Shown in pieces: positions 23,661 through 54,823 of a stretch of DNA of 64,000 nucleotides. The notes beneath the pieces were generated by a model. That model did no database searches. It saw only the letters and a list, made by a program, of their open reading frames with translations, and was not told the DNA's origin. Position numbers and translations under genes: made by a program. Each line of letters starts with the position of its first letter. The stretch's first letter is position 1. Origin of the DNA: Okeania sp. SIO2B3 (GTDB lineage: Bacteria; Cyanobacteriota; Cyanobacteriia; Cyanobacteriales; Microcoleaceae); assembly GCF_010672525.1 (NCBI RefSeq), contig NZ_JAAHGH010000013.1, forward strand, positions 1-64,000, written 5' to 3'.

Positions 23661-23697
23661 TCATTGCAAAATTCGACCATTGATTTAATATCAACAT

Positions 23698-24514: not shown

Positions 24515-24813
24515 ACTAAAATTGTGAGTAAAACCTAACCCCCCAACCCCCTTCCTATCCCCCCTTGCCCCCCTTTCAAAGGGGGGAGGAGGGAAGGGGA
24601 GGATATTCACCCCTCTCAAAAGCAGGAGAGGGGGAGGGGCAGGGGGGAGAGGTCTCCCGGGATACTGAAATTTACCCACATTTTCAAACTAGACGTGCTA
24701 GTACAGACCTCCGCCCCTAGCCTGCTGCAACCCTGCACAAACAGGTTCAAGAGGATGTCACAAAAGAGTTAATCAATCAAAGACTCAAATGTTAACAGCA
24801 CAGCACTAAGTGT

Positions 24814-27759: not shown

Positions 27760-27893
27760 TCTACTCTAATTCAGCTAAGACTGTAGAGTCCCGATCGCTA
27801 GCTCGGAACTCTACAGGCCATCCCAAGGCTATCCATGTTGTGTTTTGGGATGCAGTCTGAGATTGTGTTAACCCCTTTGATGAAGTTTTATCT
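27760..27893 (+). promoter_or_regulatory. Hydrolase-island leader L7 with two hairpins
   Basis: CTGTAGAGTCCCGA (27781-27794) pairs with TCGGAACTCTACAG (27803-27816) with one mismatch. CATCCCAA (27819-27826) pairs with TTGGGATG (27845-27852). GCAGTCTGAG, TGTTAACCCC and AAGTTTTATCT precede the ATG. Confidence 0.7.
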
Positions 27894-30404: not shown

Positions 30405-30549
30405 ATATTCATAGAAGAGTATTGATACTCCCATTACGCTCTAAGATTACCGAAAAATTGTAGGTTGGGTTGAGGAACGTTAGCGGAGCTTATCCGTTAG
30501 GATAAACCCAACACAGATATTGGGTTTCACTTCTTTCAACCCAACCTAC

Positions 30550-30702
30550 TTTATAGAAAATCTTCCACCGGTAAGGGAGTCATGTGGCTTGTCAATAGAC
30601 CGCGATTTAAACGCCAGTATAAATTTCAGAAATGCGGTCGGCTTGACCGTTAATGCCTGTGGACGGAGTGCTGCCGACAGTTCCGGTAGAAGCAGGAAGT
30701 AA
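30550..30702 (+). pseudogene. tnpB relic (C-terminal fragment)
   Basis: The frame reads SCGLSIDRDLNASINFRNAVG and ends RSRK before TAA. This is the last RuvC block and tail of an IS200/IS605-family TnpB nuclease (C-x-x-C...DRDxNAaxNi). Everything upstream is a GTAGGTTGGG-type repeat, so only about 45 codons survive. No ends for transposition are evident. Confidence 0.65.
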
Positions 30703-30921
30703 ACATTAAAATATCACGCTATGTGACGTTTTATATCAGTTTTATGAAGCAGTAGTTGATGAACTGTAGCATATCCCTGCTGGAATAGTGTGCCAGTAAT
30801 TTAAGTTTTCTCAATTATCGTGGCTTACATTAGCCACGATCGCCTTCCTCTCATATCAAATAAATAAAGTTTCTCTGTTCAAAGCTATTCTCCACTTTAG
30901 AAAAAGGATTCTGTAACTTAA

Positions 30922-32031
30922 ATGATGGATAATTCTCAAAATTATCAGGACTTAGGCAAACTTGTAGATAATACGCTATCTGTAGAGGGCAAATGCCATT
31001 TGCCCCTACGAGATATGGCGGTTCTGCGTAAGTCCTGTTATATTCAAAAACTCCTAATTGTTCTCAGTGTTTTTATTCTGACTGTTACTATTTTTAGTCC
31101 GAGTGCATTTGCCGTACCATCTTCAACTTGCCCCCAAGATATGGTTTTTATTCCGGGAGGAGATTTCAAAATGGGGTCGGATAAACCAGAATTTATCGAA
31201 GAACTACCCGTTGAAGATGTTAGTGTCAGTTCATTTTGCATTGATTCCCACGAAATTACCAACGCCCAATTTACCAAGTTTGTTGAAGATACAGGTTACG
31301 TTACCATAGCCGAACGTCCCCTATCAAAAGAACAATTTCCTGATTTACCTGATGAACAGCGATCGCCTGGTTCTCTCGTTTTTGAACCTCCCGCAGAAGG
31401 TATTCAACAAGTGGCTTATCTGAGTTGGTGGCATTGGGTTACAGGAGCAAACTGGCAACATCCCTACGGCCCCGATAGCAATATTAGCGGGAAAGAAAAC
31501 CATCCCGTTGTTCATATTGCCTACGAAGACGCCTTAGCTTATGCAAAGTGGGCAGGAAAACAACTTCCCACCGAAGCCCAATGGGAATATGCTGCCAGAG
31601 GTGGTTTAAAAGAATCTACTTACACCTGGGGTCAAGAATATTCTGCCAAAAAAGCCAACACCTGGCAAGGAATTTTTCCCTTTCTAAATACCAAAGCAGA
31701 CGGCTACTTGGGAACTGCTCCCGTTGCTTCGTTCTCGGCAAATGGTTACGGTTTGTATGACATGACGGGTAACGTTTGGGAATGGACTGCCGACTGGTAT
31801 CGCGTTGAACGAAAGGATATGGCTCATAGCGTTAATCCAGAGGGTCCCAGACAAGCCGAAAGTTTTGACCCCAAAAAACCTGCCGAGGGTGCGGTACACG
31901 TGATTAAAGGTGGTTCTCACCTCTGTGCGCCCAACTATTGCAGTCGATACCGTCCGGCTGCACGGGAGTCTCAGTCACCGGATACAGGAACCACTCACAT
32001 TGGTTTTCGTCTTGTCAAAAATTTAGGTTAA
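30922..32031 (+). CDS. Formylglycine-generating enzyme (sulfatase activator), N-terminus altered by a MITE
   Basis: A 369-codon frame. The SUMF1 domain covers about 72-368: MVFIPGGDFKMGS, EITNAQFTKFVEDTGYVT, LPTEAQWEYAARGG, GLYDMTGNVWEWTADWY, then GGSHLC335-APNY-C340-SRYRPAARE. Cys335 and Cys340 correspond to the catalytic pair of human FGE (336/341), so it should be active. It oxidises the sulfatase Cys in CxPxR to formylglycine. A secretory signal (IQKLLIVLSVFILTV...AFA) places it outside the cytoplasm with its substrates. Codons 9-38 come from MITE A. Two starts are possible: ATG at 30922 (ancestral), or ATG at 31015 inside the MITE, which gives MAVLRKSCYIQKLLIV as a normal signal peptide. 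Confidence 0.92.
   Translation: MMDNSQNYQDLGKLVDNTLSVEGKCHLPLRDMAVLRKSCYIQKLLIVLSVFILTVTIFSPSAFAVPSSTCPQDMVFIPGGDFKMGSDKPEFIEELPVEDVSVSSFCIDSHEITNAQFTKFVEDTGYVTIAERPLSKEQFPDLPDEQRSPGSLVFEPPAEGIQQVAYLSWWHWVTGANWQHPYGPDSNISGKENHPVVHIAYEDALAYAKWAGKQLPTEAQWEYAARGGLKESTYTWGQEYSAKKANTWQGIFPFLNTKADGYLGTAPVASFSANGYGLYDMTGNVWEWTADWYRVERKDMAHSVNPEGPRQAESFDPKKPAEGAVHVIKGGSHLCAPNYCSRYRPAARESQSPDTGTTHIGFRLVKNLG
30946..31037. mobile_element. MITE family A, copy 3, inserted in frame in the FGE gene
   Basis: Ends CAGGACTTAGGCA (30946-30958) and TGCGTAAGTCCTG (31025-31037) enclose a 92-bp element flanked by TTAT (30942-30945 and 31038-31041). Element plus one target copy is 96 bp, exactly 32 codons, with no stop. 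Removing it rejoins NSQNY to IQKLLIVL in frame, restoring a normal signal peptide start. Confidence 0.85.
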
Positions 32032-32686: not shown

Positions 32687-33172
32687 TTATTTTTTGCTTT
32701 GATTGATCGGTTTAGAAGTTAAAACCAAGTGTAAACGAGCATGAATCAAACTTAACTCTGCCAAACCTAAATCTAGACTGCCATCCAAAACCACTCCAGT
32801 ATTAATTATCCGGTCTAATAACTCTAAAATAGAAGGACTTTCAGATTTTTCTCCTGGATAATACTCTCCCGACTTTGGCAACAAAGTACCAATTTCACCC
32901 AAATCCAAATTCAAATCTTCGGGGTCAATATCAAATACCCCGCACAATTTAATCACCTGTTCTTCCAACTGTCGCAAACTTTCAGCCGCACGGTCTAATT
33001 CTTCATCACTCAACATTTCTGCATCCATTCGCCGAATCACCTGAGCTTCCATTAATTGCCGTAGCAACTCAATAACTGTTAGCAACAATGGAGCTAACCC
33101 TGCTTCTGAATTACTTTGAGATTTGCCAATAGGAATTATTGAGGGTTCTTCTGGAGACGGTTCTAGGGACAT
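32687..33172 (-). CDS. gvpK: Gas vesicle protein GvpK
   Basis: A 161-residue GvpK. LAPLLLTVIELLRQLMEAQVIRRM and LSDEELDRAAESLRQLEEQVIKLC are the family's N-terminal helices. PSILELLDRIINTGVVLDGSLDLGLAELSLIHARLHLVL is the GvpA-like C-terminal region. GvpK is a minor protein needed for gas-vesicle assembly, probably in nucleation or growth. It is the last gene of the left arm as transcribed. Length and motifs are complete, and the N-terminal Pro/Ser tail is common in cyanobacterial forms. Confidence 0.93.
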   Translation of the reverse strand: MSLEPSPEEPSIIPIGKSQSNSEAGLAPLLLTVIELLRQLMEAQVIRRMDAEMLSDEELDRAAESLRQLEEQVIKLCGVFDIDPEDLNLDLGEIGTLLPKSGEYYPGEKSESPSILELLDRIINTGVVLDGSLDLGLAELSLIHARLHLVLTSKPINQSKK

Positions 33173-33503
33173 AAGAAATAAAGTGTGGGGAGTAATTTCA
33201 GTTATCAGTTATCAGTTATCAGTTATCAGTACCTCTGGCGGAAGCAAGAAGCTTGAAATTTGACAATATTCCCTTTTTTATCCCTTTAAAAGGGGAGGCT
33301 TTAGAGCCAAATTTTTCGGTAATTTTTTTGCCCTTGCTAACCAAGAAAATGAGCGTCATTTCAGTTATCAGTTATCAGTTATCAGTACCTCAATGGAATA
33401 GGGAGACAAGAAAATAGTGAATTTTCTTTTTTTTTTAATCCCCTTGAAAGGGGAGACTATTGACCTAATTTTCTGGTCAGTAATTACTTCTAAATTCTAA
33501 ATT
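33173..33503. repeat. Two copies of a heptamer-plus-unit repeat between gvpK and the 72-aa gene
   Basis: CAGTTATCAGTTATCAG arrays at about 33199-33229 and 33360-33386 each precede a diverged roughly 110-bp unit (ending with AAAAGGGGAGGCT or AAAGGGGAGACT). The unit is related to the one at 1867-2042. It separates gvpK from the rest of its probable operon by 331 bp, so gvpK may have its own promoter or rely on read-through. Confidence 0.65.
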
Positions 33504-33722
33504 CTAAATTCTAAAACGTTGTAAAGCTTGCCATCGAACAAACCGCCATTGTTGAAGTTCTCTGTGAGACATAACTTCAGTTCTAGCAATACGCATTCTA
33601 GCTCTTTCAACTGCTCGATTATTTCGACCATAGAGACCGCGACAAGACAAACACCCACGAATAGCTTTACTACTGAGAATATCTTTGCTAGTTTTGATTT
33701 TTATTGCTGTATCTATTGCCAT
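33504..33722 (-). CDS. Small Arg-rich protein coupled to gvpJ
   Basis: A 72-residue, very basic protein with a CLSC pair (residues about 24-27) and an Arg-rich second half (RNNRAVERARMRIARTEVMSH, LQQWRFVRWQALQRF). The start ATG lies inside the last codons of gvpJ (the two overlap by 10 bp, 33713-33722), typical of translational coupling, which supports a real gene. I do not recognise it. Its place between gvpJ and gvpK suggests an accessory gas-vesicle role. The CxxC could bind metal if paired with another cysteine-bearing partner. Confidence 0.6.
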   Translation of the reverse strand: MAIDTAIKIKTSKDILSSKAIRGCLSCRGLYGRNNRAVERARMRIARTEVMSHRELQQWRFVRWQALQRFRI

Positions 33723-34108
33723 TTTGTACCGTTATTGTGACCATTATTGTGACCGTTATTTGAAGAGTGACCATTGGTATGATATTCATATCGATCGCTC
33801 TTAAGTGCTTTTATCTCTGACTCTAGAGAAGCAACTCGATCAAGAAGTTTTTGATTTGCCTCCATCAGAGAATTGCTTTGACTGCTGAGGTAGGGGTCAC
33901 TTTCCCACCAGTTAATTCCAATTTCTCTGGCTTTATCCACAGAAGAAATTAACAGGCGAATTTTAATGCTGAGAAGTTCTGTCGAACCAACAGAAACAGA
34001 AATATCTCCTGCAATAACTATTCCCTTATCCAGAACTCTTTCCAGTATATCTGCTAAACTAGACCCATTAGTTGCTGTCGCTAATGTATTGTTAGTTTTG
34101 GTATTCAT
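33713..34108 (-). CDS. gvpJ: Gas vesicle protein GvpJ
   Basis: A 131-residue protein of the GvpA/J/M family. SSLADILERVLDKGIVIAGDISVSVGSTELLSIKIRLLISSVDKA has the shell-protein core (two short helices around two strands). A longer hydrophilic C-terminus follows, with a coiled coil (LLDRVASLESEIKALKS) and a tail of Asn/His/Gly (HSSNNGHNNGHNNG). GvpJ is a minor shell-like protein thought to take part in nucleation or at the conical ends. Downstream of gvpN by about 40 bp and overlapping the next gene, so clearly operonic. Confidence 0.92.
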   Translation of the reverse strand: MNTKTNNTLATATNGSSLADILERVLDKGIVIAGDISVSVGSTELLSIKIRLLISSVDKAREIGINWWESDPYLSSQSNSLMEANQKLLDRVASLESEIKALKSDRYEYHTNGHSSNNGHNNGHNNGTKWQ

Positions 34109-34150
34109 AGCTTCTATTCCCAGTTCTATATATATTTTATCATCGTTAGA

Positions 34151-35089
34151 TTACTTCTTAGTACGACGACGACTACTCTGCTTCACAGTTTTTTGTTCCA
34201 CTTCTGCGGGAAATAATTCCCGTAGAACTTCCTGAAGTTTCTCCATAGCTTCTCCCCTAGGTAAACTAGCTCGCGATATTAATATATCAGCACAAATATC
34301 TTGAAAATTAGGATCTTGACCATTCACTGGAACATTATGGTCGTGACAAACCTTACCAATAATTAGACAGGAACGCAAACCGCCTAATTTTTCTTCCCCC
34401 ACTGTTGTCCGAAAAGTACGTACTAGGTTAACTATAGTTTCGGCTTTTTTGGGGTCGATACCTGTTTGACGTATGACTATTTCTTGTTCGGTTAGAGCAT
34501 CAGGTTCTCCCATATTAATTGTCACCACTCGGTCTAATAAAGCATCTTGAGTAGCATGAACTCCACAATATTCTTCTGAGTTGGAAGTTAAAATTACTCT
34601 AAACCTAGGATTAACTTGAATATATTCCGAGCGGTCTTGGTTGGGTGGCAAAACCAACATTTTCTCTTCTAAAACTGAGAGTAAAATATTGTTTACCTCT
34701 GGACGAGAGCGATTAAATTCGTCATAAACTAAGGTAAAACCTTCTTTACAAGCTAAGGTTAATCTAGAGTCAATCCAATGATGTTTCAGTTCATCCTCAA
34801 CTTTTAATACGGTATGGATATAATTATCCACAACTTTTTTCCTAGTATATCCAGATTGATTACCTATTAAATCTGAGGTTTTAAATTCATCATCTCCAAA
34901 CATTAAAACAATGGGTTGGCGACGTAGATGAGCAAGGTGTAATGCAAGGGTTGTTTTACCTACTCCTGCTGGACCGCGCAAATGAACTGAATAGCCAGAT
35001 TTTAAATAACGCAAAGCACGTTGAGCTATACGTTCGACACCGGGGGTGCTGACAAATTGTTGGGGTGAGACATTAAGTACAGTAGTCAT
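34151..35089 (-). CDS. gvpN: Gas vesicle protein GvpN, AAA-type ATPase
   Basis: A 312-residue AAA protein of the MoxR/NorQ type. GPAGVGKTT at 39-47 is the Walker A motif, [16 protein letters not shown] is Walker B with the following arginine-rich turn, and [15 protein letters not shown] is sensor 1. It is required for enlarging gas vesicles from small bicones. The C-terminus ([16 protein letters not shown]) is a basic tail. Sits between gvpV upstream and gvpJ downstream in the left arm. Confidence 0.94.
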
Positions 35090-38918: not shown

Positions 38919-40799
38919 TCAAAATAAATAATTAGCTGCTCCTTTTATTTGTTCTATAGGTTCAATTGAACGAGGTAACATTGGCATACAAAAAACTTCT
39001 GCTCCTGGAAATTTATCCCTAGGAACAACGCTATTAGAGGTAAAACAATTTAAAACCACATAATTTTGTGCTATCTTCTTTTCTACAAGAGATTGATAAA
39101 GACGTTCTGCTTCGGCAATAACTCCGGTCTGGGGACGCATAACTCCAATAAATTCTGTTTTTTGCGAATCTTTCAGAATTTTTTGTGCATTAACTACCCG
39201 TTTCCGTAAAGTTCTTAAACGCCCCATAAATTCGGTTCGACCAATAATATCTTGATATTTTATCCATAGTTTAAAAATCCAACTCAACCAATCTTGCATA
39301 GCACTAGGCATTTCCAAAAAACGTAATAAATGACCAGTGGGAGCTGTATCTAAAATAATTAAATCTTCTTGGTTTTTTTCCAACAATTCAATTACTGTTA
39401 ATAAGGATAATATTTCATCAATACCAGGTAAAGCTTGTTCGACAATTTGACGCCATCCCTTGGGAGCAAATGCCATTTCAAAAGATGCTGAATTATCGGC
39501 TTTTTCCCCACTCATTATTTCTGCTAATTCCCACAAATAATCTTCTCGAAATTTATCAAGAACTCGATTTGATTCTATTTCTTGTCCTTTGAGGTTAGTA
39601 TTAATTATAGATGGTTCATGGCTTAGAGTTAGACCAAAAGCATCTCCTAAAGAATGGGCAGGATCTATAGAAACTGTTCTAATGTGACTTTCTGGATGCC
39701 GTTGTGCCATTTCCCAACCAATGGCAGCAGCTATAGTAGTTTTCCCTACACCTCCTTTTCCCCCAATAATTAATAAACGCTTACCCTCTTCAATAAAGTC
39801 AGTAAAACCAGGAGGAATTTTTTCCGGCCATTTAATATCTACTTTCTCAGAAGTTGAGAGTGGTAGACTTTCTGCTGGAGAAATTTGGTCGATTAGATTT
39901 TCTAGGGCAGTTATACCTAAAGGTTCAGAATTTTGTTGGGGTATCAGGTATACCGATTTTTCTCCTGCCAGTTCCATAAACTGACTAACTAACTTTCCTT
40001 GTTCCAGACAGCGATCGCCACTACTATCCTTATCTATAACAATTTGATTCACAAAAATCGCACCGTAAGGAATTTTCAGATTTTCCAAAGAATCTAAAAA
40101 TCTCCTGGTCTCCTGAAAACTCATCGGTTCGGGTAGTGCCATAACTAAACAAGCGGTATTAGGAGACTCTTGTAATAAATGACGACCTGCTGCTAATTCG
40201 TCCTTAAGATTTTGTAATGTTTCATCCGCCTCATCTGGTGTATACTTACCCGCGAAACTTTCTTTTATGTAGCGATATTTCTGTTGAAAAAGTTCTAGGG
40301 AGTTGAGTAGGGTATCCAAAAAATCCATTAGTCGGAATAAGTTGAGAGTATGACCGCTCGGAGCCATATCTACTACTACTCGATTGACTACTTTTTCGTT
40401 ACAGAGGCGTTGTATTTCCAGTAAACCCATTAATTCGTCTAATCCTGGCCAATCTAAATCCCAGACTGGGGTGAGGTCTTCCCCTTCAACAAAACTACCT
40501 CGTTCTACCAGTAGTTCTAGGATATCGCCGTAACGTTGTTTAAATTCTTCGAGCAGGAGATTAGCATCTAAAGCTCTGACTGAAAGATTGGGTAAATTTT
40601 GTAAAGGTGTTGGTGTATCTGTGACTTGTATTTGCAGGACATCTCCTAAAGAGTGGGCAGGATCGGTGGAAATTAAGAGGATTTTTTCATCAGGGAATTT
40701 TTTCGCCCATTGGCAAGCAAAAGCACAAGAAGTTGTGGTTTTTCCCACACCTCCTTTGCCACTAAACATTGCTAAGTTTAGGTTATCAAAAAGTTCCAT
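38919..40799 (-). CDS. ArsA/Get3-like two-domain ATPase
   Basis: A 626-residue protein made of two ArsA-type halves: GKGGVGKTT at about 14-22 and again at about 344-352, each followed by DPAHSLGD (switch I) and by DMAPSGHTL or DTAPTGHLLR (switch II). No cysteine triad typical of arsenite binding was seen, so it is more like a Get3/TRC40-type client ATPase than an arsenite pump subunit. A TTG eight codons earlier also fits the frame; the ATG is preferred because it starts directly before the P-loop region. Serratia-type gas-vesicle loci include a gene of this kind (recalled). Handling of hydrophobic GvpA-like clients is an inference. Confidence 0.85.
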   Translation of the reverse strand: MELFDNLNLAMFSGKGGVGKTTTSCAFACQWAKKFPDEKILLISTDPAHSLGDVLQIQVTDTPTPLQNLPNLSVRALDANLLLEEFKQRYGDILELLVERGSFVEGEDLTPVWDLDWPGLDELMGLLEIQRLCNEKVVNRVVVDMAPSGHTLNLFRLMDFLDTLLNSLELFQQKYRYIKESFAGKYTPDEADETLQNLKDELAAGRHLLQESPNTACLVMALPEPMSFQETRRFLDSLENLKIPYGAIFVNQIVIDKDSSGDRCLEQGKLVSQFMELAGEKSVYLIPQQNSEPLGITALENLIDQISPAESLPLSTSEKVDIKWPEKIPPGFTDFIEEGKRLLIIGGKGGVGKTTIAAAIGWEMAQRHPESHIRTVSIDPAHSLGDAFGLTLSHEPSIINTNLKGQEIESNRVLDKFREDYLWELAEIMSGEKADNSASFEMAFAPKGWRQIVEQALPGIDEILSLLTVIELLEKNQEDLIILDTAPTGHLLRFLEMPSAMQDWLSWIFKLWIKYQDIIGRTEFMGRLRTLRKRVVNAQKILKDSQKTEFIGVMRPQTGVIAEAERLYQSLVEKKIAQNYVVLNCFTSNSVVPRDKFPGAEVFCMPMLPRSIEPIEQIKGAANYLF

Positions 40800-40851
40800 C
40801 AGTTTTTTTATATTAAAAATCAAGGTTTATTTGAATTAGAACCCACCCCTA

Positions 40852-41641: not shown

Positions 41642-41821
41642 ATGCGATACCCAGTTAAACTGAAACAAACTGATGAAGAATATGCTGTTTGGTGTCCTTA
41701 TTTACCTGGATGTTGGTCTCAGGGAGAAACTGAAGGTGAGGCATTGGAAAATATTAAGGATGTCATAGAATCTTATTTAGAATACATAGAAGAGTTAAAT
41801 TCAGATAGTGAGTTACGTTAA
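41642..41821 (+). CDS. Orphan HicB-like antitoxin (59 aa)
   Basis: Starts MRYPVKLKQTDEEYAVWCPY, then LPGCWSQGETEGEALENIKDVIESYLEYIEEL. This is the compact HicB fold (YxVxCPxLPGCxSQGxTxxEALxNI). It has its own ATG and is divergent from the DUF2442 gene. Its stop overlaps by 3 bases the stop of the convergent caspase gene, so no toxin gene can follow it. It may regulate in trans or be a remnant of a TA pair. Confidence 0.7.
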   Translation: MRYPVKLKQTDEEYAVWCPYLPGCWSQGETEGEALENIKDVIESYLEYIEELNSDSELR

Positions 41822-43707
41822 AGTCCACAAGTCTCTGCACGAGAGAAGAAATTCCCTGCCAACCAACACAAAGAACTAGAGTGGGTGCAGTCAAACAAAG
41901 CTGGTAATTGTCCCCGATAAGAGCTTTCTAAATCAATATTCTCCCTCCTTCGCCTTATTCCCAATAGGTCATAACCCCATCCTACTTCTTCGCTAAACTC
42001 TTCCCAGATCGAGATATCTGCATTATTATATGTAGATGTACCACCAAAACTCTGATAAATTTTCTTCTGCACGGAAAAGCCAAATTTACCTTTACTATAT
42101 TTTACCCAAAGTTGGTCTATTTTCTTGAAGTCTGGACATGAAAAGTTGGCAATTGACTCATAATTTAGCCAACCTTTTTTTTCTCGATTACTAACTTTAA
42201 AAATAATGTTATAAGTTTCCTTTTCAGCTTCTCTCCATTTATTTTGTTTTAGTAGATTTTCTAGAGTAGAATAATCTATCCTGATGTTAGTAGGTTGTTT
42301 GGTACTTTCAATGTTATCTGTGTGTTGTAGTTCAGATTGTAGTGATGTTATACTATTAATATTGTTTATGTTGTGTGAGCTACTTAAGTAAGATGTCACT
42401 ATTAAAATACTCATGCACGTTACTAGCAAAATTACCTCTCCCAAGTTAGACCTTGATTCAAAACTATTAGCAGTATATTTAGTAGGATTTTTTCGAGCTA
42501 CCGTTGAGAATGATACTTTTTGATCTTTGTTGTTTAATTGTGTAGAATTTTGTGATTCCAATGAATGAGTTATAATCTGTTTTTTTTCATTATTTTTAAT
42601 TTCAACCACTGAAATATTTTGAAATTGTAAACCCGGTAGTTGAGAGATAATTCGTTTTTCTATAGGCTCAACATCTTCATTTCTCAGTCCTAAAATTGAC
42701 TTGATATTCCGTAGTTTTTCCTTTTCAGTTTCCACAAATGGAAAACATTCTTCAACTGCTTGATGAAAAATATTTTCATAACGTTTTAACTTTTTATTAA
42801 ACTGAATATAAGGTTCTTTTTCTTCAGTTTCAATCACCTTTGCTTCCTCATCAGATATACAATGTCTATTACATAGTTCCTCTAATAAAAAACGATTGAG
42901 AAAATCTATATTGCCATTATTTTTGCGCAATATTTCCTGCACTTTGCGACGATATTGCAATTTCGGATCGTCTTGGGGAGAACTTGCTAAATAAATTCGA
43001 TAACCGTCATTCACAGGTGCAAATTGAGGAATCATTGCTGGAGATTCTTCTTTTACCTTTTCACTCACATATTGATGCAATTCATCCGCTGAAATTTTGC
43101 CATTATTATCAGTATCTGCTGCCCCAGTTTTAATTCCTTCAACTAGATATTTTGTATAAATAGATAGTTCCGAACCTTCAGGCGCATAAGAAACTTGGCC
43201 AGAACTAGAAGACATCAAAATTGCCCTACCTTTACCCCCTAATTCTGCTTGGATATCTATATTTTCATCCCCTTTAGCAATCATTCCTTTAGTAAATGCG
43301 CCACTATAACAACAGTCAATAATCACAACCAGGCGTTGGGAAAGACTATTATCCATTTCACCTTGTATAAAACTAGCACCCACAAAAGTCGGTGTAACAA
43401 TTCCCCGTGTATCTTTGCGACTTTTAGGAGTGGCTAAAAATAGATTACCCTCTTGACTTGTAACACCATGACCAGAAAAATAAAAAAGTAAAACATCTTC
43501 CTGACTCCGGTTAGCAAACAATTCATAAATTGCCTCTTCTATTTGTTGGCGATCAGAATTTTTCAACACTTTAATATCATCAAAACCTCCCATTTCGGAA
43601 TTACTTAAAACTTCTTTCATTGCCTCAACATCTTTCACAGGACTAGGCAAAGCTGTAAATTCTGGGAGGTATTCACTAATTCCAACTAATAAAGCTATTT
43701 TTGCCAT
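41818..43707 (-). CDS. Caspase-family protease with membrane segment and GUN4 domain
   Basis: A 629-residue protein. Residues 1-235 are a peptidase C14 caspase domain: KIALLVGISEY, FYFSGH80-G with the catalytic His, and VVIIDCC133-YSGAF with the catalytic Cys. A linker follows. Around residues 415-440 there is one transmembrane segment (VILLVTCMSILIVTSYL). Residues about 470-620 are a GUN4 domain (LENLLKQNKWREAEKETYNI, FSCPDFKKIDQLWVKYSKGKFGFSVQ). GUN4 domains bind tetrapyrroles in the chlorophyll pathway; in caspase fusions they may sense porphyrins or stress. It follows an EACC1-like gene by 12 bp, a pairing known from bacterial conflict systems. Confidence 0.9.
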   Translation of the reverse strand: MAKIALLVGISEYLPEFTALPSPVKDVEAMKEVLSNSEMGGFDDIKVLKNSDRQQIEEAIYELFANRSQEDVLLFYFSGHGVTSQEGNLFLATPKSRKDTRGIVTPTFVGASFIQGEMDNSLSQRLVVIIDCCYSGAFTKGMIAKGDENIDIQAELGGKGRAILMSSSSGQVSYAPEGSELSIYTKYLVEGIKTGAADTDNNGKISADELHQYVSEKVKEESPAMIPQFAPVNDGYRIYLASSPQDDPKLQYRRKVQEILRKNNGNIDFLNRFLLEELCNRHCISDEEAKVIETEEKEPYIQFNKKLKRYENIFHQAVEECFPFVETEKEKLRNIKSILGLRNEDVEPIEKRIISQLPGLQFQNISVVEIKNNEKKQIITHSLESQNSTQLNNKDQKVSFSTVARKNPTKYTANSFESRSNLGEVILLVTCMSILIVTSYLSSSHNINNINSITSLQSELQHTDNIESTKQPTNIRIDYSTLENLLKQNKWREAEKETYNIIFKVSNREKKGWLNYESIANFSCPDFKKIDQLWVKYSKGKFGFSVQKKIYQSFGGTSTYNNADISIWEEFSEEVGWGYDLLGIRRRRENIDLESSYRGQLPALFDCTHSSSLCWLAGNFFSRAETCGL

Positions 43708-44925: not shown

Positions 44926-45174
44926 TTATTCTTCTTCTTTAAGCCTTTCTTCTTCCGCCGCCTGAATTGCTAATAAAAGCTCCTCTTCTTGTTCTTCAAA
45001 ATCTTCTTCTGAAACCTCTCCCATGTCAAAAGCAAGTTGAAGAGCTAGAAGTTTTTTACTAAGATTTTCTTTATCATCCACTTCTGTATCAACTTGTTCT
45101 TGAATTTTTTTCCCTAACCAAACTATTCCTCCCAATGGACCAGTAATAGGCAGAGTTAATAAACGGATAATCAT
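44926..45174 (-). CDS. gvpG: Gas vesicle protein GvpG
   Basis: An 82-residue GvpG. LLTLPITGPLGGIVWLGKKIQEQVDTE is the family signature, followed by a Leu/Glu helical region ending in an acidic tail. GvpG works with GvpF/L in early assembly. First gene of the minus-strand arm; faces gvpF at 45575 across a shared upstream region. Confidence 0.92.
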   Translation of the reverse strand: MIIRLLTLPITGPLGGIVWLGKKIQEQVDTEVDDKENLSKKLLALQLAFDMGEVSEEDFEEQEEELLLAIQAAEEERLKEEE

Positions 45175-45574: not shown

Positions 45575-46312
45575 ATGAAATCTGGTTTCTATGTTTATGG
45601 TATATTCCTACCACCTGGTCCGCAAAATTTAAGTTTACAAGGATTGGATAAAGAAGTTGTAAATATTCAAATTGTTGATGAATTTGCTGTGCTTTATTCT
45701 ATGGCAAAACAGGAACGTTATCTGGCAAGTCGTCGCAATTTAGTTACCCATGAAAAAGTGCTTGAGTCAGCGATGGAGGCAGGTTATAGAAATGTTTTGC
45801 CTATGCGATTTGGTTTAGTAGTTTCTGACTGGGAAAAATTTTCTCAACAGTTGACTAATCCTTTTGAACAGGTAATGAAAGAATTATTTGTTAAGTTAGA
45901 AAATAATCGAGAAGTAGGAATAAAAGTATATTGGGAACCAGATGCCGAAATTCAAAAGTTACTTGTAGAAAATCCACAACTAAAAACTCAAAGAGATAGT
46001 TTGGTTGGCAAAAATTTAAGTATGGATGAGGTGATTCAGATTGGGCAAGCTATTGAACAAGAAATGAATAGTCGTAAACAAGATATTATTGAAATTTTCC
46101 AAACAACTCTGAATAAAATGGCGATTGAAGTAGTAGAAAATGACCTGCAAACAGAAAAAATGATTTATAATGCAGCCTATCTAATACCCTGGGAAAAAGA
46201 ATCTGAATTTGGTGAAAAAGTAGAAGCTATTGATAGTAAATTTGAGGGAAGATTTAAAATTCGCTACAATAGTTTTACTGCTCCTTTTAATTTTGCTCGA
46301 ATTGAAGAATGA
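45575..46312 (+). CDS. gvpF: Gas vesicle protein GvpF
   Basis: A 245-residue GvpF/L-family protein. SGFYVYGIFLPPGPQNL at the start, RYLASRRNLVTHEKVLE, RNVLPMRFGLVVSDWEKF, and NAAYLIPWEKESEF...RIRYNSFTAPF close to the end match cyanobacterial GvpF. Minor structural or assembly protein that binds GvpA. Full length. Confidence 0.92.
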   Translation: MKSGFYVYGIFLPPGPQNLSLQGLDKEVVNIQIVDEFAVLYSMAKQERYLASRRNLVTHEKVLESAMEAGYRNVLPMRFGLVVSDWEKFSQQLTNPFEQVMKELFVKLENNREVGIKVYWEPDAEIQKLLVENPQLKTQRDSLVGKNLSMDEVIQIGQAIEQEMNSRKQDIIEIFQTTLNKMAIEVVENDLQTEKMIYNAAYLIPWEKESEFGEKVEAIDSKFEGRFKIRYNSFTAPFNFARIEE

Positions 46313-47290: not shown

Positions 47291-49252
47291 ATGAATCATT
47301 TTTTAAGATTAGACTTAAGACAAATAATAGAATTAGCAAAAGTTCTAGAAAAAAAATCCGAAACAGGGGAAGTAAAAACTTCCTATCAAGTACAGTCTCG
47401 AACTATTAACAATACTCCCAGAAGAACTAACACTAACATACCAAGAAGAAGAGACCCTTATCAAACCCAAATCAGACAACCTCCCAGACAAACCAGACCT
47501 CCACAACCAACTAACTTTACTCCCCCACCCCCAGACACAAAACCAGCACCCACCTCAAAAGAAACTGGCGGTGTAACAGAAAACAGACCTCAACAACAAA
47601 CTAACTTTACTCCCCCACCTCCAGAAACTAAATCAAGACCTACTCTCAAAGACATTGGGGGTATGTCCGAAATAATTCAAGAATTAAGAGAAGTAATAGA
47701 ACTCCCACTCAAACGCCCCGATCTATTATCACAATTAGGACTAGAACCTGCTCGTGGAGTCTTATTAGTTGGACCGCCAGGTACCGGTAAAACTCTCACA
47801 GCTAAAGCAATAGCAGAAGAACTGAGACTCAATTATATTGCAATTAACGGGCCCGAAGTAATCAGCAAATATTATGGGGAAGCAGAAGCGAGGTTACGCA
47901 AAATTTTTACCAAAGCAAAACAATCTGCTCCTTGTCTGATATTTATAGATGAGATTGATAGTATTGCTCCAGACCGTAGCAAAGTTGAAGGAGAAGTCGA
48001 AAAACGATTAGTTGCCCAATTATTAGGATTAATGGATGGATTTGTCGAACATCAGGGTGTCTTAATTTTAGCAGCAACAAACCGCCCAGACCATATCGAT
48101 CCTGCTCTCCGTCGTCCGGGAAGATTTGACCGAGAAATTAATTTCCGTATTCCAGACCGCAATGGAAGATTAGAAATTTTGCAGATAATGACAAATTCTA
48201 TGCCATTAGATAGTTCTGTTGACTTGGGAGAAATTGCCGATATGGCAGTTGGGTTAGTGGGTGCTGACTTAAAAGCTTTATGTCAAAAAGCAGCTTATTT
48301 AGCTCTCCGTCGTCAAGTTCCATCTTTAGATAGTCCGACTCCAGAGGATATGAGTTTATTGCAAACTGATTTTCTAGCAGCAATTAAAGAAATTAAACCT
48401 TCTGTATTACGGTCTGTAGCGGTAGAAGTGCCTAATGTCAGTTGGCAAAATATTGGCGGTCTGGATGCAGTAAAACAAAAATTACAAGAGTCAGTGGAGG
48501 GAGCATTACTGTATCCAGAATTATACGAACAAACCAAGGCAAAAGCTCCCAAAGGAATTTTATTATGGGGCGAACCAGGAACCGGAAAAACTTTGCTGGC
48601 AAAAGCTGTTGCTTCCCAAGCACAAGCTAATTTTATTGCTGTCAACGGACCAGAGTTGCTCAGTAAATGGGTGGGAGCAGCAGAAGAAGCAGTACGAGAA
48701 CTTTTTTCTAAAGCAAGACAAGTTGCACCTTGTGTAATATTTATTGATGAAATTGATACTCTAGCTCCTGCTCGTGGTAAATTTATCGGAGACTCTGGAG
48801 TGAGCGATCGCCTAGTTGGTCAATTATTAACAGAATTAGATGGTTTGCGCGACTGTACTCAGACATTATTGGTGGGAGCAACTAACCGCCCCGATGCTCT
48901 AGAACCAGCATTATTGCGAGCGGGAAGATTAGATTTGCAAATTAAAGTAGACTTACCAGATAAAGCAGGTCGTTTAGCAATTTTGAAAGTTCATAATCAA
49001 GACCGTCCACTGCAAGGAGTAAATTTGAATGATTGGGCAAATTGTACCGAAGGTTGGAATGGAGCAGATTTGGCATTGTTAACTAATCAAGCTGCTTTAG
49101 CTGCTATTCGTAGTTATAGTGCCAAAGGAATTAAGTCTCCAAACAAAATTAGGATTAGAAATGCTCACTTTACTACTGCTTACAACGCTCTAATTAATCA
49201 AAAACAGTCTCATAATTTTAATTCTGATTCGAGCTCAAGTAGGGTGCGTTAA
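47291..49252 (+). CDS. CDC48/p97-like double AAA+ ATPase
   Basis: A 653-residue protein. Residues 1-115 are a Pro/Thr/Arg-rich disordered region with a duplicated phrase (TNFTPPPP). Two AAA+ modules follow, with Walker A at 161-168 (GPPGTGKT) and 427-434 (GEPGTGKT), Walker B CLIFIDEID and CVIFIDEID, and RPGRFDRE / RAGRLDLQ arginine-finger regions. CDC48-type proteins unfold or remodel protein assemblies. No p97-style N-domain is seen. It lies between gvpF and a second GvpF/L gene in the same direction, suggesting a role in building or recycling gas vesicles (inference). The last residues are derived from a repeat insertion that created the stop at 49252. Confidence 0.88.
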   Translation: MNHFLRLDLRQIIELAKVLEKKSETGEVKTSYQVQSRTINNTPRRTNTNIPRRRDPYQTQIRQPPRQTRPPQPTNFTPPPPDTKPAPTSKETGGVTENRPQQQTNFTPPPPETKSRPTLKDIGGMSEIIQELREVIELPLKRPDLLSQLGLEPARGVLLVGPPGTGKTLTAKAIAEELRLNYIAINGPEVISKYYGEAEARLRKIFTKAKQSAPCLIFIDEIDSIAPDRSKVEGEVEKRLVAQLLGLMDGFVEHQGVLILAATNRPDHIDPALRRPGRFDREINFRIPDRNGRLEILQIMTNSMPLDSSVDLGEIADMAVGLVGADLKALCQKAAYLALRRQVPSLDSPTPEDMSLLQTDFLAAIKEIKPSVLRSVAVEVPNVSWQNIGGLDAVKQKLQESVEGALLYPELYEQTKAKAPKGILLWGEPGTGKTLLAKAVASQAQANFIAVNGPELLSKWVGAAEEAVRELFSKARQVAPCVIFIDEIDTLAPARGKFIGDSGVSDRLVGQLLTELDGLRDCTQTLLVGATNRPDALEPALLRAGRLDLQIKVDLPDKAGRLAILKVHNQDRPLQGVNLNDWANCTEGWNGADLALLTNQAALAAIRSYSAKGIKSPNKIRIRNAHFTTAYNALINQKQSHNFNSDSSSSRVR

Positions 49253-49417
49253 TGAAATGTAACGCACCTTCTATCCGAAATATTTCGCTCAGTTACGCTT
49301 TCGGTGCGGAATGCTGCGCCAACGGTAACTCTCCCAAATATTTCGGTGCTCTCCCAAATATTTCGCTCAGTTACGCTTTCGGTGCGGAATGCTGCGCCAA
49401 CGCTAACGCACCCTACT
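49238..49417. mobile_element. 180-bp GTAGGGTGCGTTA foldback element at the end of the AAA gene
   Basis: AGTAGGGTGCGTT (49238-49250) and AACGCACCCTACT (49405-49417) are inverted ends. Inside, CCCAAATATTTCG and TACGCTTTCGGTGCGGAATG motifs are repeated. Related units occur at 61361-61583. Confidence 0.65.
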
Positions 49418-49423
49418 GGACTA

Positions 49424-49560
49424 CTATTCGTAGTTATAGTGCTAAAGGAATTAAGTCTCCAAACAAAATTAGGATTAGAAATGCTCACTTTACTAATGCT
49501 TACAACGCTCTAATGAATCAAAAACAGTCTCATAATTTTAATTCTGATTCTAGTAAGTAG
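49424..49560 (+). pseudogene. Duplicated 3' end of the AAA ATPase gene
   Basis: 127 bp (49424-49550) repeat 49104-49230 with a few changes and then run to the likely ancestral ending (DSSK, TAG at 49558-49560). The two copies flank the foldback element. A frame of 102 codons across the region is this remnant plus repeat, not an independent gene. The spacer after it, up to 49776, carries a GTAGGTTGGGTT foldback repeat. Confidence 0.8.
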
Positions 49561-49776: not shown

Positions 49777-50454
49777 ATGTCATTTTATGTCTACGCTTTC
49801 GTTAATTTACCCAAATCATCCCTAACATTGCCAAAAGGTATGGAAAAGGAAGTCGAACTAATTCCATATCAAAATCTGGCTGCTGTAACTGAATCAGATA
49901 TATCTATTGAAGCAATACAGGAAACAGACGAAAAATTACTCCAAGCAGTATTAACTCACGATCGCGTAGTTAGAGAAATATTTCAGCAAACTCCCCTAAT
50001 ACCACTCAGATTTGGAAATGCTTTTGCTGCTGTTGGAAATATTATTAATCACTTACAAAATCATCAGCAACAATATCTGACTACTTTAACTCAATTGGCA
50101 GAAAAGGCAGAATATACCATCAAATTTTCTCCCGTTTCTCCTCCTTCTAGTCTAGAAAGTAGTAATGCTCGTGGCAAAGCTTATTTATTAGCAAAAAAAC
50201 AACGCTTTCAACAGCAGCAAGCTTTTCAAACTGAGCAACGTCAACAGTGGGAAAATATACGTCAGTTAATTCTCAAAGAATATCCTGAAGCAGTCTGGAA
50301 AAATAGTACAGAAAGCGAAATTAAGCAAGTCCATTTGTTGGCCAATAGTAAAGTAGAAGTTCTAACTACTCAACAATTACCAACTTGGCAAGCTGAGTGT
50401 TCCTATTGGGAAATTAGTTTGAGTGAAGCACTTCCACCTTATCATTTTGTATAG
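49777..50454 (+). CDS. GvpF/L-family gas vesicle protein, second copy
   Basis: A 225-residue GvpF/L-family protein, quite different from gvpF at 45575. SFYVYAFVNLPKSS at the start, LTHDRVVREIFQQTPLIPLRFG in the middle, ARGKAYLLAKKQRFQQQQ before a helical stretch, and YWEISLSEALPPYHFV at the end. The shorter type is usually called GvpL in some cyanobacterial annotations; I leave the symbol open. Confidence 0.88.
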   Translation: MSFYVYAFVNLPKSSLTLPKGMEKEVELIPYQNLAAVTESDISIEAIQETDEKLLQAVLTHDRVVREIFQQTPLIPLRFGNAFAAVGNIINHLQNHQQQYLTTLTQLAEKAEYTIKFSPVSPPSSLESSNARGKAYLLAKKQRFQQQQAFQTEQRQQWENIRQLILKEYPEAVWKNSTESEIKQVHLLANSKVEVLTTQQLPTWQAECSYWEISLSEALPPYHFV

Positions 50455-50931: not shown

Positions 50932-51225
50932 ATGGCAGTAGAAAAAATCAACTCATCTTCCAGTCTAGCTGAAGTTGTAGACCGCATTCTTGACAAAGGT
51001 GTTGTCATAGATGCTTGGGTTCGTGTTTCCTTAGTCGGTATTGAATTACTGGCAATTGAAGCTAGGGTAGTTATTGCTTCAGTAGAAACTTATTTAAAAT
51101 ATGCTGAAGCAGTTGGTTTGACAGCTCTAGCCGCAGCACCAGGAGAAGCTATGTCTAATGATTTAGATGATGAACCTATGGACGCAATAGGAGTAACAGA
51201 ACCTTCTGCTGCTGGAGCTTATTAA
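50932..51225 (+). CDS. gvpA: Major gas vesicle shell protein GvpA, copy 1, C-terminally extended
   Basis: The first 71 residues are nearly the standard cyanobacterial Gvp[30 protein letters not shown] followed by [34 protein letters not shown]. GvpA forms the ribs of the vesicle wall. The protein is 97 residues long; the extra 26 ([20 protein letters not shown]...AY) are acidic and should face one surface of the shell. First of a gvpA-gvpC-gvpA set. Confidence 0.96.
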
Positions 51226-51246: not shown

Positions 51247-51726
51247 ATGGCTCTTAAAGATACATGGGCAAAAGAGCGATCGCAAAGATTAACGGAAATT
51301 GCCGAACGCAAACTAGAGGTTGCCCAACACAGACAACAAACTCAAGCGGAACTTCGTGCTATTAGACAAGAGCTTAATGAAGAAGCTCAGGTGCTTCACA
51401 CTATGTTACAGGAGTTTGTGACAAAACTTCAGGAAACAGGTTTGGCAGAAAAACAGCAAAGACAACTGGATAATGCCGAACGTCATCAACAAGTGCGGAC
51501 AATGTTAGAAGATTATGTTGAAGCACTGCGTTTGTATGAACAACAAGCACGTCAGGAGCGTTTAGAAGATATTGCTAAACGCAAACAAGAAGTATTAGAA
51601 CTTAAGCTTGAGGTGTTGCAACTTCAGGAACAATTCAGTTCTGATCGGGCATTAATGTCTCAGGAGTTGACTGAGACATTACAGCGCTTCCGAACTAAAT
51701 TGCATGATTATGTTTGGGGATCTTAA
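51247..51726 (+). CDS. gvpC: Gas vesicle outer-surface protein GvpC
   Basis: A 159-residue, highly helical Gln/Glu/Arg-rich protein with approximate 33-residue periodicity (ERKLEVAQHRQQTQAELRAI; AERHQQVRTMLEDYVEAL; AKRKQEVLELKLEVLQL). The end (LTETLQRFRTKLHDYVWG) matches the conserved GvpC C-terminus. GvpC binds the outside of the vesicle and strengthens it against collapse. It lies 21 bp after gvpA and has no strong ribosome site of its own, which fits the low GvpC:GvpA ratio. Confidence 0.88.
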   Translation: MALKDTWAKERSQRLTEIAERKLEVAQHRQQTQAELRAIRQELNEEAQVLHTMLQEFVTKLQETGLAEKQQRQLDNAERHQQVRTMLEDYVEALRLYEQQARQERLEDIAKRKQEVLELKLEVLQLQEQFSSDRALMSQELTETLQRFRTKLHDYVWGS

Positions 51727-51765: not shown

Positions 51766-52038
51766 ATGGCAGTAGAAAAAGTTAACTCATCTTCCAGTCT
51801 AGCTGAAGTTGTAGACCGCATTCTTGACAAAGGTGTTGTCATAGATGCTTGGGTACGGGTTTCTTTAGTAGGTATTGAATTACTTGCAGTTGAAGCTAGG
51901 ATAGTTATTGCTTCAGTAGAAACTTACTTAAAATATGCCGAAGCAGTTGGTTTAACTGCTCTAGCAGCAGCACCAGGAACAGAAGTTGTTGATGAAACTG
52001 AAATAGGACAACCGATGGCTTCTCCTACTTTAGTATAA
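51766..52038 (+). CDS. gvpA: Major gas vesicle shell protein GvpA, copy 2, C-terminally extended
   Basis: A 90-residue GvpA with the same core as copy 1 (a few conservative changes) and a different 19-residue tail ([19 protein letters not shown]). It has a good ribosome site, AAAGGAATAAATC, before the ATG. The nucleotide identity in the core to copy 1 is very high, so recent duplication or gene conversion is likely. Confidence 0.95.
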
Positions 52039-52277: not shown

Positions 52278-54338
52278 ATGAAAAATTTCAAAAATCTGCA
52301 AGAGAAAGGGAATTTACCTAGTATTCCCAATCCTTTCAAGAAAACTACTGATGTCGTAGAAAATATTACTGAAAATTTGCCCACAGAAAATTTATCTTCT
52401 CTCAAATATTTGCCAAATGAATTAACAGATAAGGTGGAAAATGTTACAGAAAAACTACCTTTACCAGGTTTGAATCTTTTGATGGGAATGTTTAGTTATA
52501 TCAAAAAGTTTTTGACATTCATTTTCACTGTTATTAGCAATATATTTTCAGGGATAAAAACACTATTTCAAGTATTTATTGCGATTCCCGTAAAAATATA
52601 TCTCTTTTTACTTCAGGCGATCGGCAAAATTTGGTCATGGCTGAAAGCTGTTTTTAAAGCTTGTGTGAATTTAATCGTCAAAATATATGAATTTATCATC
52701 GATAAAATTAGCAAAATATTTTTAGGAGTCAAAATACTATTTCAAATATTCATTGCTATTCCAGTTAAAACCTATTTATTTATAGTTGATATTATCGGCA
52801 AAATTTGGTCATGGCTGAAAGCTGTTTTTAAAGCTTGTATAAATCTAATTATCAAAATCTATGAATTTATAATTGACACTGTTAAGAAAAGATTTTTCTG
52901 GGTGAAAATACTATTTCAAGTATTCATTGGTATTCCAGTTAAAACCTATTTATTTATAGTTGATATTATCGGCAAAATTTGGTCATTTATCAAATATTTT
53001 ATTAAAACTTTAATAGCATTTATTACTACAATTGGCAAAATTTTAAAACTTCTCTTTTTGAACCATTTATCCCTACTTACTAATCCATTGCAAAGTTTGA
53101 AATATCTTGGTAATAGTGGAGGAGAAATAGTAGATAATTTATCTGAAGGACTAGGAGAAGTTACAGATAATTTATCTGAGGGACTAGGAGAAGTTACAGA
53201 CAATTTATCTGAAGGAATAGGAGAAGTTACAGACAATTTATCTGGAGGAATAGGAGAAGTTACAGACAATTTATCTGAAGGAATAGGAGAAGTTACAGAT
53301 AATTTATCTGAAGGACTAGGAGAAGTTACAGGTAATTTATCTGAAGGAATAGGGGTAGTTACAGATAATTTACTTGGTGGTAGACAGAACAAAAAGACAA
53401 AAAATCAGAAGACAAAACCCCTGGAAAAGTCAAAAAAAAAACCAGAATCAGATCCACCACCGTCACAACCAGACTCCTCGGAATTACCAACCGATATAGT
53501 AGAACAATTCCAACTACCAGACGAAGCATCCCCATCAGCTCTCCCATTACCCCCAGAGTCATCGGAACCGCCCACCGATATAGAACAAGAAGACCCAGAC
53601 GAAGTTTCCCCCTCAGAACTTCCAGACACATCAGACGTAGTTTATAAAAAGACTAAAGGATTAATCTATATTCAAGATTTGTATTCTAAAGGCAAAGCAA
53701 GTAATCTCTATACCCTAGATATAGAATCAGGTAAAACAGTCTTAATTGGTTCTATGGGTATGCATATAGTTGATATTGCTTTTTGTGGAAATATACTCTA
53801 TGGTATTCGGTGGCGCGACCAAAAAACAACAGATTTAGTCAGAATAAATCCCACCACTGCCAAAACTACAATTATTGGTAAATTAGGTAATAGTAAAGTA
53901 GCTAGTTTAGCTTTTTCTAAACATAGAAAAACTCTTTATGCAATGGGCCCTCAAACATTATTAAGAGTAAATGTAAAGACAGGTGCAGGAAGAGTTATTA
54001 GGTCTTATAAATCTTATTATCCTTTTTATTGTGGTGGTTTAGCTTTTGATAGTAAGGGCAGAGCATATTCAGATTTTGGTAATAATAATAATCGGCAAAG
54101 ATACCTGATGCGACTTAATAATAACGGTACTCCTATTGCTGTTGGTGGTGCTAGTGGAGTCAAGAATTATGGTTGTCTAGATTTTTATGGTGATGAATTA
54201 TTTGCTATATTTAATGGTCAAATCTTTAAGTATGATTTAGTTACTGGTAAAGCAAAGCTTGTAAATTATATAGAACACAATATTTCTTGGGCGGGAATGA
54301 GTGTTAAATTGCATCCTAGTATAAATAAAATGTCTTGA
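52278..54338 (+). CDS. Unrecognised 686-aa repeat protein downstream of gvpA
   Basis: Residues 1-75 are polar. Residues about 78-270 are a string of hydrophobic, Lys-bearing segments built from a 58-residue repeat (LFQVFIAIPVKTYLFIVDI / IGKIWSWLKAVFKACINLI / IKIYEFIID; copies begin at 52563, 52737 and 52911, 174 bp apart). Residues about 286-373 are eight 11-residue repeats, consensus DNLSEGLGEVT (33 bp each, 53133-53396), predicted to form an amphipathic 11-mer helix as in synuclein, perilipin or LEA proteins. A basic then a Pro/Glu/Ser-rich linker follows (375-455). Residues about 460-680 are a beta-propeller-like domain (NLYTLDIESGKTVLIGSMG, LVRINPTTAKTTIIGKLG). Ribosome site AAAGGAGTTTGAG precedes the ATG. 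I recognise no whole-length homologue. It probably sits on a membrane or vesicle surface. Confidence 0.8.
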   Translation: MKNFKNLQEKGNLPSIPNPFKKTTDVVENITENLPTENLSSLKYLPNELTDKVENVTEKLPLPGLNLLMGMFSYIKKFLTFIFTVISNIFSGIKTLFQVFIAIPVKIYLFLLQAIGKIWSWLKAVFKACVNLIVKIYEFIIDKISKIFLGVKILFQIFIAIPVKTYLFIVDIIGKIWSWLKAVFKACINLIIKIYEFIIDTVKKRFFWVKILFQVFIGIPVKTYLFIVDIIGKIWSFIKYFIKTLIAFITTIGKILKLLFLNHLSLLTNPLQSLKYLGNSGGEIVDNLSEGLGEVTDNLSEGLGEVTDNLSEGIGEVTDNLSGGIGEVTDNLSEGIGEVTDNLSEGLGEVTGNLSEGIGVVTDNLLGGRQNKKTKNQKTKPLEKSKKKPESDPPPSQPDSSELPTDIVEQFQLPDEASPSALPLPPESSEPPTDIEQEDPDEVSPSELPDTSDVVYKKTKGLIYIQDLYSKGKASNLYTLDIESGKTVLIGSMGMHIVDIAFCGNILYGIRWRDQKTTDLVRINPTTAKTTIIGKLGNSKVASLAFSKHRKTLYAMGPQTLLRVNVKTGAGRVIRSYKSYYPFYCGGLAFDSKGRAYSDFGNNNNRQRYLMRLNNNGTPIAVGGASGVKNYGCLDFYGDELFAIFNGQIFKYDLVTGKAKLVNYIEHNISWAGMSVKLHPSINKMS

Positions 54339-54550: not shown

Positions 54551-54823
54551 ATGAGGGATCTTAGTAATGTTCCAATACATTTGCTGAATCACGAACATTA
54601 TCGTCAAATGTTAGTTCGTGATGGTCAACGTCGTTTTAATGAGTGGCATACAGAATATCTCAGATATCAGCAAGAATTTCTCAAGGATCAGCGACGTCGA
54701 ATTCGGGAACTAGAAAATTTGCGTGAGTCTATTTATCAATATAATAAACGTCGTTCCCGGGAGTCTCGGAGAGAATTTTTGCGTTATCAGAATAAGTTTC
54801 TGAATGAGATGCGCCGTTATTAG
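54551..54823 (+). CDS. Small Arg-rich helical protein with internal repeat
   Basis: A 90-residue basic helical protein. EYLRYQQEFLKDQRRR and EFLRYQNKFLNEMRRY are two copies of a 15-16-residue motif separated by a coiled-coil-like stretch (RIRELENLRESIYQYNKRR). GAGAGG lies upstream, and ATG at 54551 is preferred over GTG at 54548. About 210 bp downstream of the 686-aa gene in the right arm; a GvpC-like clamp role is only a guess. Confidence 0.55.
   Translation: MRDLSNVPIHLLNHEHYRQMLVRDGQRRFNEWHTEYLRYQQEFLKDQRRRIRELENLRESIYQYNKRRSRESRREFLRYQNKFLNEMRRY

Follow-up and report, generated by a model that had tools for sequence, protein, structure and literature searches.

The window (the whole stretch of 64,000 nucleotides from Okeania sp. 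SIO2B3 that was analysed) encodes a protein of 686 amino acid residues that joins an N-terminal half of hydrophobic 29-residue and acidic 11-residue repeats to a C-terminal domain predicted to fold as a beta-propeller. Its gene is located immediately downstream of gas vesicle (gvp) genes and, among the genomes searched, is restricted to one clade. Judged from sequence and gene neighbourhood, the protein probably belongs to the gvp system. We tentatively regard it as a membrane-anchored gas vesicle accessory protein, a tether or organiser, of one marine cyanobacterial group, which is possible rather than likely.

The single frame proposed for this protein in the initial annotation was borne out. 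The gene and the parts of its product are the following:

52278..54338 (+), the 686-aa gene including its stop codon, with an ATG start and no internal stop
52278..52466 (+), the N-terminal 63 residues, with the hendecad-like DVVENITENLP and DKVENVTEKLP
52467..53060 (+), the hydrophobic, Lys-edged region (residues 64-261), in which 29-mers follow one another in tandem as 58-residue pairs, with a net charge of +20
52539..52973 (+), the five clear 29-residue units (residues 88-232), in which Pro-centred (FIAIPVK type) alternate with strongly amphipathic (KAVFKAC type) units
53133..53375 (+), the acidic 11-mer (hendecad) array (residues 286-366), with seven full copies (residues 286-362) and the stub DNLL (residues 363-366)
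53376..53645 (+), the linker (residues 367-456), Lys-rich and then Pro/Ser/Glu-rich, of low model confidence
53646..54335 (+), the predicted beta-propeller (residues 457-686) of about five four-stranded blades, supported by Pfam, structure model and Foldseek

The sequence AAAGGAG ends six bases upstream of the ATG in the window and in all three relatives compared; a shortened relative (genome G001) has AAAAAAG in this place before its start. Nei-Gojobori dN/dS ratios of the propeller were below 1 in every pair compared, ranging between 0.18 and 0.53 in four pairs and between 0.26 and 0.45 in a second set of 10 pairs (first 220 codons). In the four pairs, the hydrophobic part gave 0.34-0.86, the highest value coming from the closest pair, G000 (the genome of the window) with G004. 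Ratios were looser elsewhere, with 0.39-2.07 in the 11-mer part and 0.53-1.24 in the linker, the highest value of each belonging to G003 with G021 and resting on 8 and 20 changes.

Residues 64-261 are hydrophobic and contain 25 Lys. Self-identity within this region peaks at lags of 58 (0.59), 116 (0.35), 29 (0.28) and 87 (0.27) residues, and within one 58-mer the first half is identical to the second at 11 of 29 positions, a value equalled by none of 20,000 shuffles. Each 58-mer is thus a pair of 29-mers: the 58-residue hydrophobic repeat described initially is real, but its basic unit is the 29-mer. Degenerate 29-mers flank the five clear units on both sides.

Twenty-nine residues amount to eight helical turns at 99.3 degrees. 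The helical moment of the hydrophobic part was 0.447 at 99.5 degrees per residue, with the maxima of shuffled sequences having a mean of 0.16-0.17 and a standard deviation of 0.02. The same best angle of 99.5 degrees was obtained, at identities down to 49%, for all five members possessing the region (G000, G003, G004, G011 and G021); their moments were 0.42-0.45, and the maxima after shuffling averaged 0.17-0.20. A tandem repeat inflates moment peaks by itself, and a single unit is therefore the fairer test; the single 58-mer gave a moment of 0.451 against 0.297 ± 0.040 after shuffling. Taken separately, the KAVFKAC-type 29-mer is strongly amphipathic (moment 0.60, equalled by none of 5,000 shuffles), the Pro-centred FIAIPVK type has a moment of 0.31 at 99.3 degrees that is not significant (P 0.07), and the two degenerate flanks are amphipathic with P 0.0014 and 0.003. 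On the octanol scale, segments of 19 residues over the three Pro-centred units give -9.9, -7.6 and -7.7 kcal/mol. The C-terminal flank of the window protein is comparable to these (-8.6) and the amphipathic units are weaker, while in G003 and G004 the best octanol score belongs to the N-terminal flank (-11.8).

A single continuous amphipathic helix of 198 residues was considered and dropped because the Pro-centred unit is so weakly amphipathic. This weakness, together with the membrane-inserting octanol scores of the same unit, led us to adopt an alternation in which the amphipathic 29-mers would be surface helices and the Pro-centred ones inserted segments. The moments and scores support the original description of the Lys-spiked repeats as membrane- or interface-type, and the N-terminal half is on balance likely to be membrane-associated.

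The 11-mers had been counted as eight repeats; the array itself stands, with one copy reduced to the stub. Three hydrophobic positions per repeat form a hydrophobic stripe at 98 degrees. The initial annotation took the repeat to be of a type that forms helices on curved lipid or protein surfaces; residues 280-366 are acidic, with a net charge of -20 and neither Lys nor Arg, and the hydrophobic repeats are hence the better anchor candidate. The array recalls alpha-synuclein, perilipins and apolipoproteins, which we take to be amphipathic proteins built of 11-mers, and differs from them in this same acidity and lack of Lys and Arg. The apolipoprotein family gave a weak Pfam match to the window protein (E 0.079, 13.1 bits against a cut-off of 90). 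The chlorosome envelope protein CsmC was rejected as a candidate, its marginal match (26.5 bits against a cut-off of 26.3) being confined to the repeat-rich region, with its best stretch at the start of the 11-mers (residues 275-319).

The search of NCBIfam returned no family for the 686-aa protein, and the PDB sequence search returned one weak match only, to the 11-mer part (E 0.075). Phage tape-measure proteins aside (see below), none of the described families searched gave a convincing match to the 29-residue repeat. The model of the full-length protein was poor (mean pLDDT 43, about 30 in the N-terminal half), with helices broken at three Pro sites, and was used for the propeller and, cautiously, for the helix breaks only.

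Modelled alone from six sequences, the C-terminal domain reached a mean pLDDT of 82 and a pTM of 0.82. The 20 strands of this model form four-stranded blades in a circular array, that is, a predicted propeller, in agreement with the initial annotation. In a Foldseek search against PDB, kelch, TolB and nidogen propellers were matched with a best E of 5.7e-9, and against viral models a Fadolivirus protein came first, followed by kelch-like proteins. The fold is held in common with propellers of the DUF6923/DUF4394, kelch, TolB and nidogen types; the PDB propellers are 9-16% identical to the window protein among the 50 matches listed. For DUF6923, the window protein lies under the cut-off (21.2 against 27 bits) and its G011 orthologue over it (36.3 bits). 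Kelch and TolB propellers have six blades, whereas about five are predicted in the window protein. A propeller of the same type opens a 1139-aa protein (L039:6089-9508) encoded far from the gvp genes of its genome; judged by eye, the middle of this protein is rich in Ser/Thr/Gly and its long end resembles a coiled coil.

The gvp cluster of the window extends over two arms and includes the following genes:

51766..52038 (+), gvpA, second copy (PF00741)
51247..51726 (+), a 159-aa charged-helix gene, GvpC-like by place, without a GvpC family match
50932..51225 (+), gvpA, first copy (PF00741)
49777..50454 (+), gvpF/L, second (PF06386)
47291..49252 (+), a double AAA+ ATPase of the CDC48 type (TIGR01243, 672 bits, under the cut-off of 802.65)
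45575..46312 (+), gvpF/L, first (PF06386)
44926..45174 (-), gvpG (PF05120)
34151-35089 (-), gvpN (TIGR02640, 386 bits, over the cut-off), in the second gvp arm (32687..35089)
33713-34108 (-), a GvpJ-type gene with a match under the cut-off, second gvp arm
32687-33172 (-), a GvpK-GvpA fusion of 161 aa (PF05121, then PF00741), second gvp arm
54551..54823 (+), a small charged-helix gene whose relatives, repeat proteins, are encoded next to gvpF/L in four g7 genomes

Directly upstream of the 686-aa gene are thus found, in order, gvpF/L, gvpA, the 159-aa gene and gvpA. The last three had been read as gvpA-gvpC-gvpA, of which both gvpA genes were confirmed. For the gene between them, GvpC was absent among the Pfam matches (E ≤ 1) and the NCBIfam matches (E ≤ 0.001); it is called GvpC-like, an assignment not confirmed, solely for its position, its size and its charged helices. 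On the other side, the small downstream gene matches proteins adjoining gvpF/L in G010, G025, G028 and G031 (group g7, presumably Trichodesmium) in pieces that are 47-76% identical, with one exception at 25%; in the G028 relative the repeat is exactly 35 residues long and present in five copies. Since these relatives adjoin gvpF/L, the 686-aa gene of the window is enclosed by gvp-associated genes and does not mark the edge of the cluster. The small gene is also located 3' of the homologue in G003, G004 and G034, so that three of the five gvp-linked copies (G000, G003 and G004) have it downstream. It was not found in G001, G002, G011 and G021, the contigs of G001 and G021 stopping just past the 686-aa-gene homologue.

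Among 98 genomes, 23 matched the protein (E ≤ 0.001), eight with orthologues or remnants, eight with propeller relatives and seven with weak matches in the 11-mer region. The orthologues and remnants (G000-G004, G011, G021 and G034) all belong to one family and include Okeania and Hydrocoleum; G011 is of a genus other than that of G000 and G002. The propeller relatives occur in genomes of the same family, with a best match 34-40% identical, and seven of these eight genomes are without gvpA. In a set of 386 genomes spread over the phylum 19 matched, the best matches besides the window's genome being propeller-only (three genomes, E 2e-31 to 6e-28).

Six copies are open (G000, G001, G003, G004, G011 and G021). 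The initial annotation had named homologues unlinked to gvp genes as evidence against its proposal; gvpA adjoins five of the six, at a distance of 1.2 kb in G001, and only the G011 copy, which thus speaks in part against that proposal, stands apart, with gvpF, a relative of the 159-aa gene and gvpA on another contig. The G021 copy (615 aa) reaches the end of its contig. That of G011 (L036:9317-11773) is 818 aa long, and its extra C-terminal stretch of about 165 residues had no Pfam match at E ≤ 0.05. In the G001 copy (L034:305-1900, 531 aa) the hydrophobic and 11-mer parts are gone and a Pro/Gln/Ser-rich linker unit, about 25-27 residues long, is present eight times; this genome retains gvpA, gvpF, gvpN and the GvpK-GvpA gene.

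The copies are broken in G002 and G034, the two genomes whose gvp set is not in working order; all six open copies are in gvpA-positive genomes. G002 has a fragment (residues 425-587) beside remnants of gvpN and of the GvpK-GvpA gene. This joint loss was dropped as strong proof of a gvp link and counts as weak evidence, because non-gvp neighbours are truncated there as well. In G034 (94% complete) GvpA, GvpF/L, GvpN, GvpK and GvpG were all not found; its 3.2-kb contig starts inside the 11-mers, carries the small downstream gene intact and shows a single frameshift, within a stretch of nine A. As the sole break seen sits in such a stretch, it is possibly a sequencing error. The G034 propeller looks constrained (dN/dS 0.26-0.42), which points either to a recent loss or to an erroneous frameshift; if the frameshift is erroneous, the gene persists in a genome lacking gvp genes, and this would count against the gvp reading.

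Within the 61 genomes of the family, an open copy is present in 6 of 26 gvpA-positive and in 0 of 35 gvpA-negative genomes (Fisher P 0.004, kinship ignored, the positive cases being one group of relatives and G002, with its remnant, counted as gvpA-positive). If the G034 copy is treated as present and G002 as gvpA-negative, the figures are 6 of 25 against 1 of 36 (P 0.016, kinship again ignored). A protein search of two of the 61 genomes, G098 and G099, made after the test, gave no matches. GvpA can escape detection in drafts, as in G031, where GvpF and GvpG were found and GvpA gave no match.

Membership in the gvp system is supported by the position of five of the six open copies beside gvpA, by the confinement of open copies to gvpA-positive genomes and, further, by the gvp-associated neighbour downstream in G000, G003 and G004. 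Some of the same data speak for a mere neighbour, that is, a clade-specific membrane-associated propeller protein located in the gvp cluster by chance and having another role. The unlinked G011 copy, the nearly intact G034 copy where five gvp families were not found, the mostly gvpA-free genomes of the propeller relatives and the 20 of 26 gvpA-positive family genomes without an open copy all favour it. We consider such a coincidence somewhat unlikely in view of the five copies beside gvpA, three of which have a gvp-associated gene on the other side as well.

If the protein does serve gas vesicles, its anatomy suggests an anchor and a head. The N-terminal half would be a membrane anchor built of 58-residue repeats, in each of which the amphipathic helix, with its Lys-rich face, would lie in the membrane surface and the Pro-centred hydrophobic segment would enter or span the bilayer. 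A stalk and a spacer might then be provided by the acidic 11-mer helix and the Pro/Ser-rich linker, and a soluble head by the five-bladed propeller, whose binding partner would in the simplest case be the vesicle surface or a GvpC-like protein. A protein of this kind could fix or place vesicles at a membrane, or keep them attached to one another. The common helical angle in all five members, the octanol scores and the propeller pLDDT of 82 support this anatomy, from which we infer membrane insertion, a binding partner and a tethering function. The most specific version, a propeller-headed tether that docks vesicles to a cellular membrane via tandem 29-residue, eight-turn repeats, seems unlikely as it stands. 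The tether or organiser reading in general is weakened by G001, which keeps its gvp genes yet dropped the hydrophobic and 11-mer parts, by the unlinked G011 copy, the constrained G034 propeller and the many gvpA-positive genomes without an open copy, and also by the dN/dS of 0.86 of the hydrophobic part in the closest pair and the low pLDDT of the N-terminal half.

The protein might also bundle vesicles without any lipid membrane, its helical half self-associating and its propeller binding the shell; the Lys-faced helices (+20) would then pair with the hendecads (-20), in cis or in trans. In all five members having both regions, the hydrophobic part is positive and the 11-mer part negative in net charge (+20/-20 in G000, +18/-19 in G004, +17/-14 in G003, +13/-15 in G021 and +17/-10 in G011), a balance that is rough in G011. 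Cyanobacterial gas vesicles pack in hexagonal clusters and GvpU/GvpT are absent from cyanobacteria, according to the relevant passages of PMC10903477, which would leave room for such an organiser. We nonetheless find it distinctly unlikely, as the hydrophobic units score as membrane-inserting.

A third reading sees in the repeats a captured segment of a phage tape-measure protein, reused as a ruler or internal thread of the vesicle. In PHROGs, tape-measure families matched at E down to 3.8e-10, best over residues 80-352, and the same stretch of both relatives tested matched such families too. In a tblastn search of 50,697 phage records nine matched, of which eight are tape-measure genes (one Clostridioides phage entered twice and six Gordonia) at 21-23% identity and E 4e-3 or worse. 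In the controls, the reversed sequence was nearly as good over the same stretch (best E 5.6e-9 against 6.7e-10 forward), with 10 families listed against 24; a shuffle keeping the hydrophobic/polar pattern still matched one tape-measure family at 7e-4, and a full shuffle matched none. None of 15 neighbouring window proteins was listed as a phage tail protein in a comparison with Pfam; gvp genes are among them. Since reversed and pattern-keeping sequences also match, the signal seems mostly to reflect helical periodicity and composition, and a tape-measure origin was dropped as the main reading after these controls and is very improbable.

The proposed membrane-anchored accessory protein may be compared with known gas vesicle proteins. 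Like GvpC it is repeat-built, mostly helical and encoded in a gvp cluster. In contrast to the 33-residue repeats of GvpC, its periods are 29 and 11; it is far more hydrophobic, has a propeller in addition, and the GvpC family was absent from its Pfam and NCBIfam matches (both E ≤ 1). The 33-residue repeats of cyanobacterial GvpC are thought to bind GvpA via Arg, Leu and Phe, as stated in an excerpt of PMC10903477, and GvpC repeats in Planktothrix are treated in PMC5259702. The accessory role proposed here, placing or bundling vesicles, is akin to that of GvpU/GvpT of Bacillus, described in part of PMC11445434 as non-essential clustering proteins; unlike them, the 686-aa protein matched no such family in Pfam or NCBIfam, and GvpU/GvpT are exclusive to Bacillota according to the relevant passage of PMC10903477. 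The passages of PMC9950537 consulted leave gas vesicles aside and contain nothing on tethers to gas vesicles. Among the matches listed from the title and abstract openings of the open-licence literature, none describes the 686-aa protein.

For the hexagonal packing that cyanobacteria achieve without GvpU/GvpT (PMC10903477, in part), the gene offers a candidate for vesicle bundling or placement. The apparent combination of an anchor and a binding head could provide a modular attachment of engineered vesicles to membranes, and the 29-residue, eight-turn repeat may be of interest to helix designers regardless of its function.

Several further features of the gvp cluster were observed. The GvpK-GvpA fusion (32687-33172, -) has matches over most of its length in G010, G021 and G025. 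A tandem ArsA/GET3-type ATPase (38919-40823, -) is located beside the gvp genes, likewise in G010, G025, G028 and G001; ArsA homologues in gvp clusters have been described (excerpt of PMC2963123). The CDC48-type double AAA+ ATPase between the two gvpF/L genes is kept near gvp genes in G001, G003, G004, G021 and G010. It is followed by a short frame with internal repeats (49252-49560, +), the end of which duplicates part of the end of the AAA gene (IRSYSAKGIKSPNKIRIRNAHFT), and a similar partial copy occurs in L031. Between the two arms of the cluster, a caspase-like domain is fused to a GUN4-like domain (41818-43707, -). Beyond the second arm, 18502-32031 (+) holds four genes in a row that, from their motifs, we take to be sulfatase-like, followed by a presumably sulfatase-modifying-factor-like gene.
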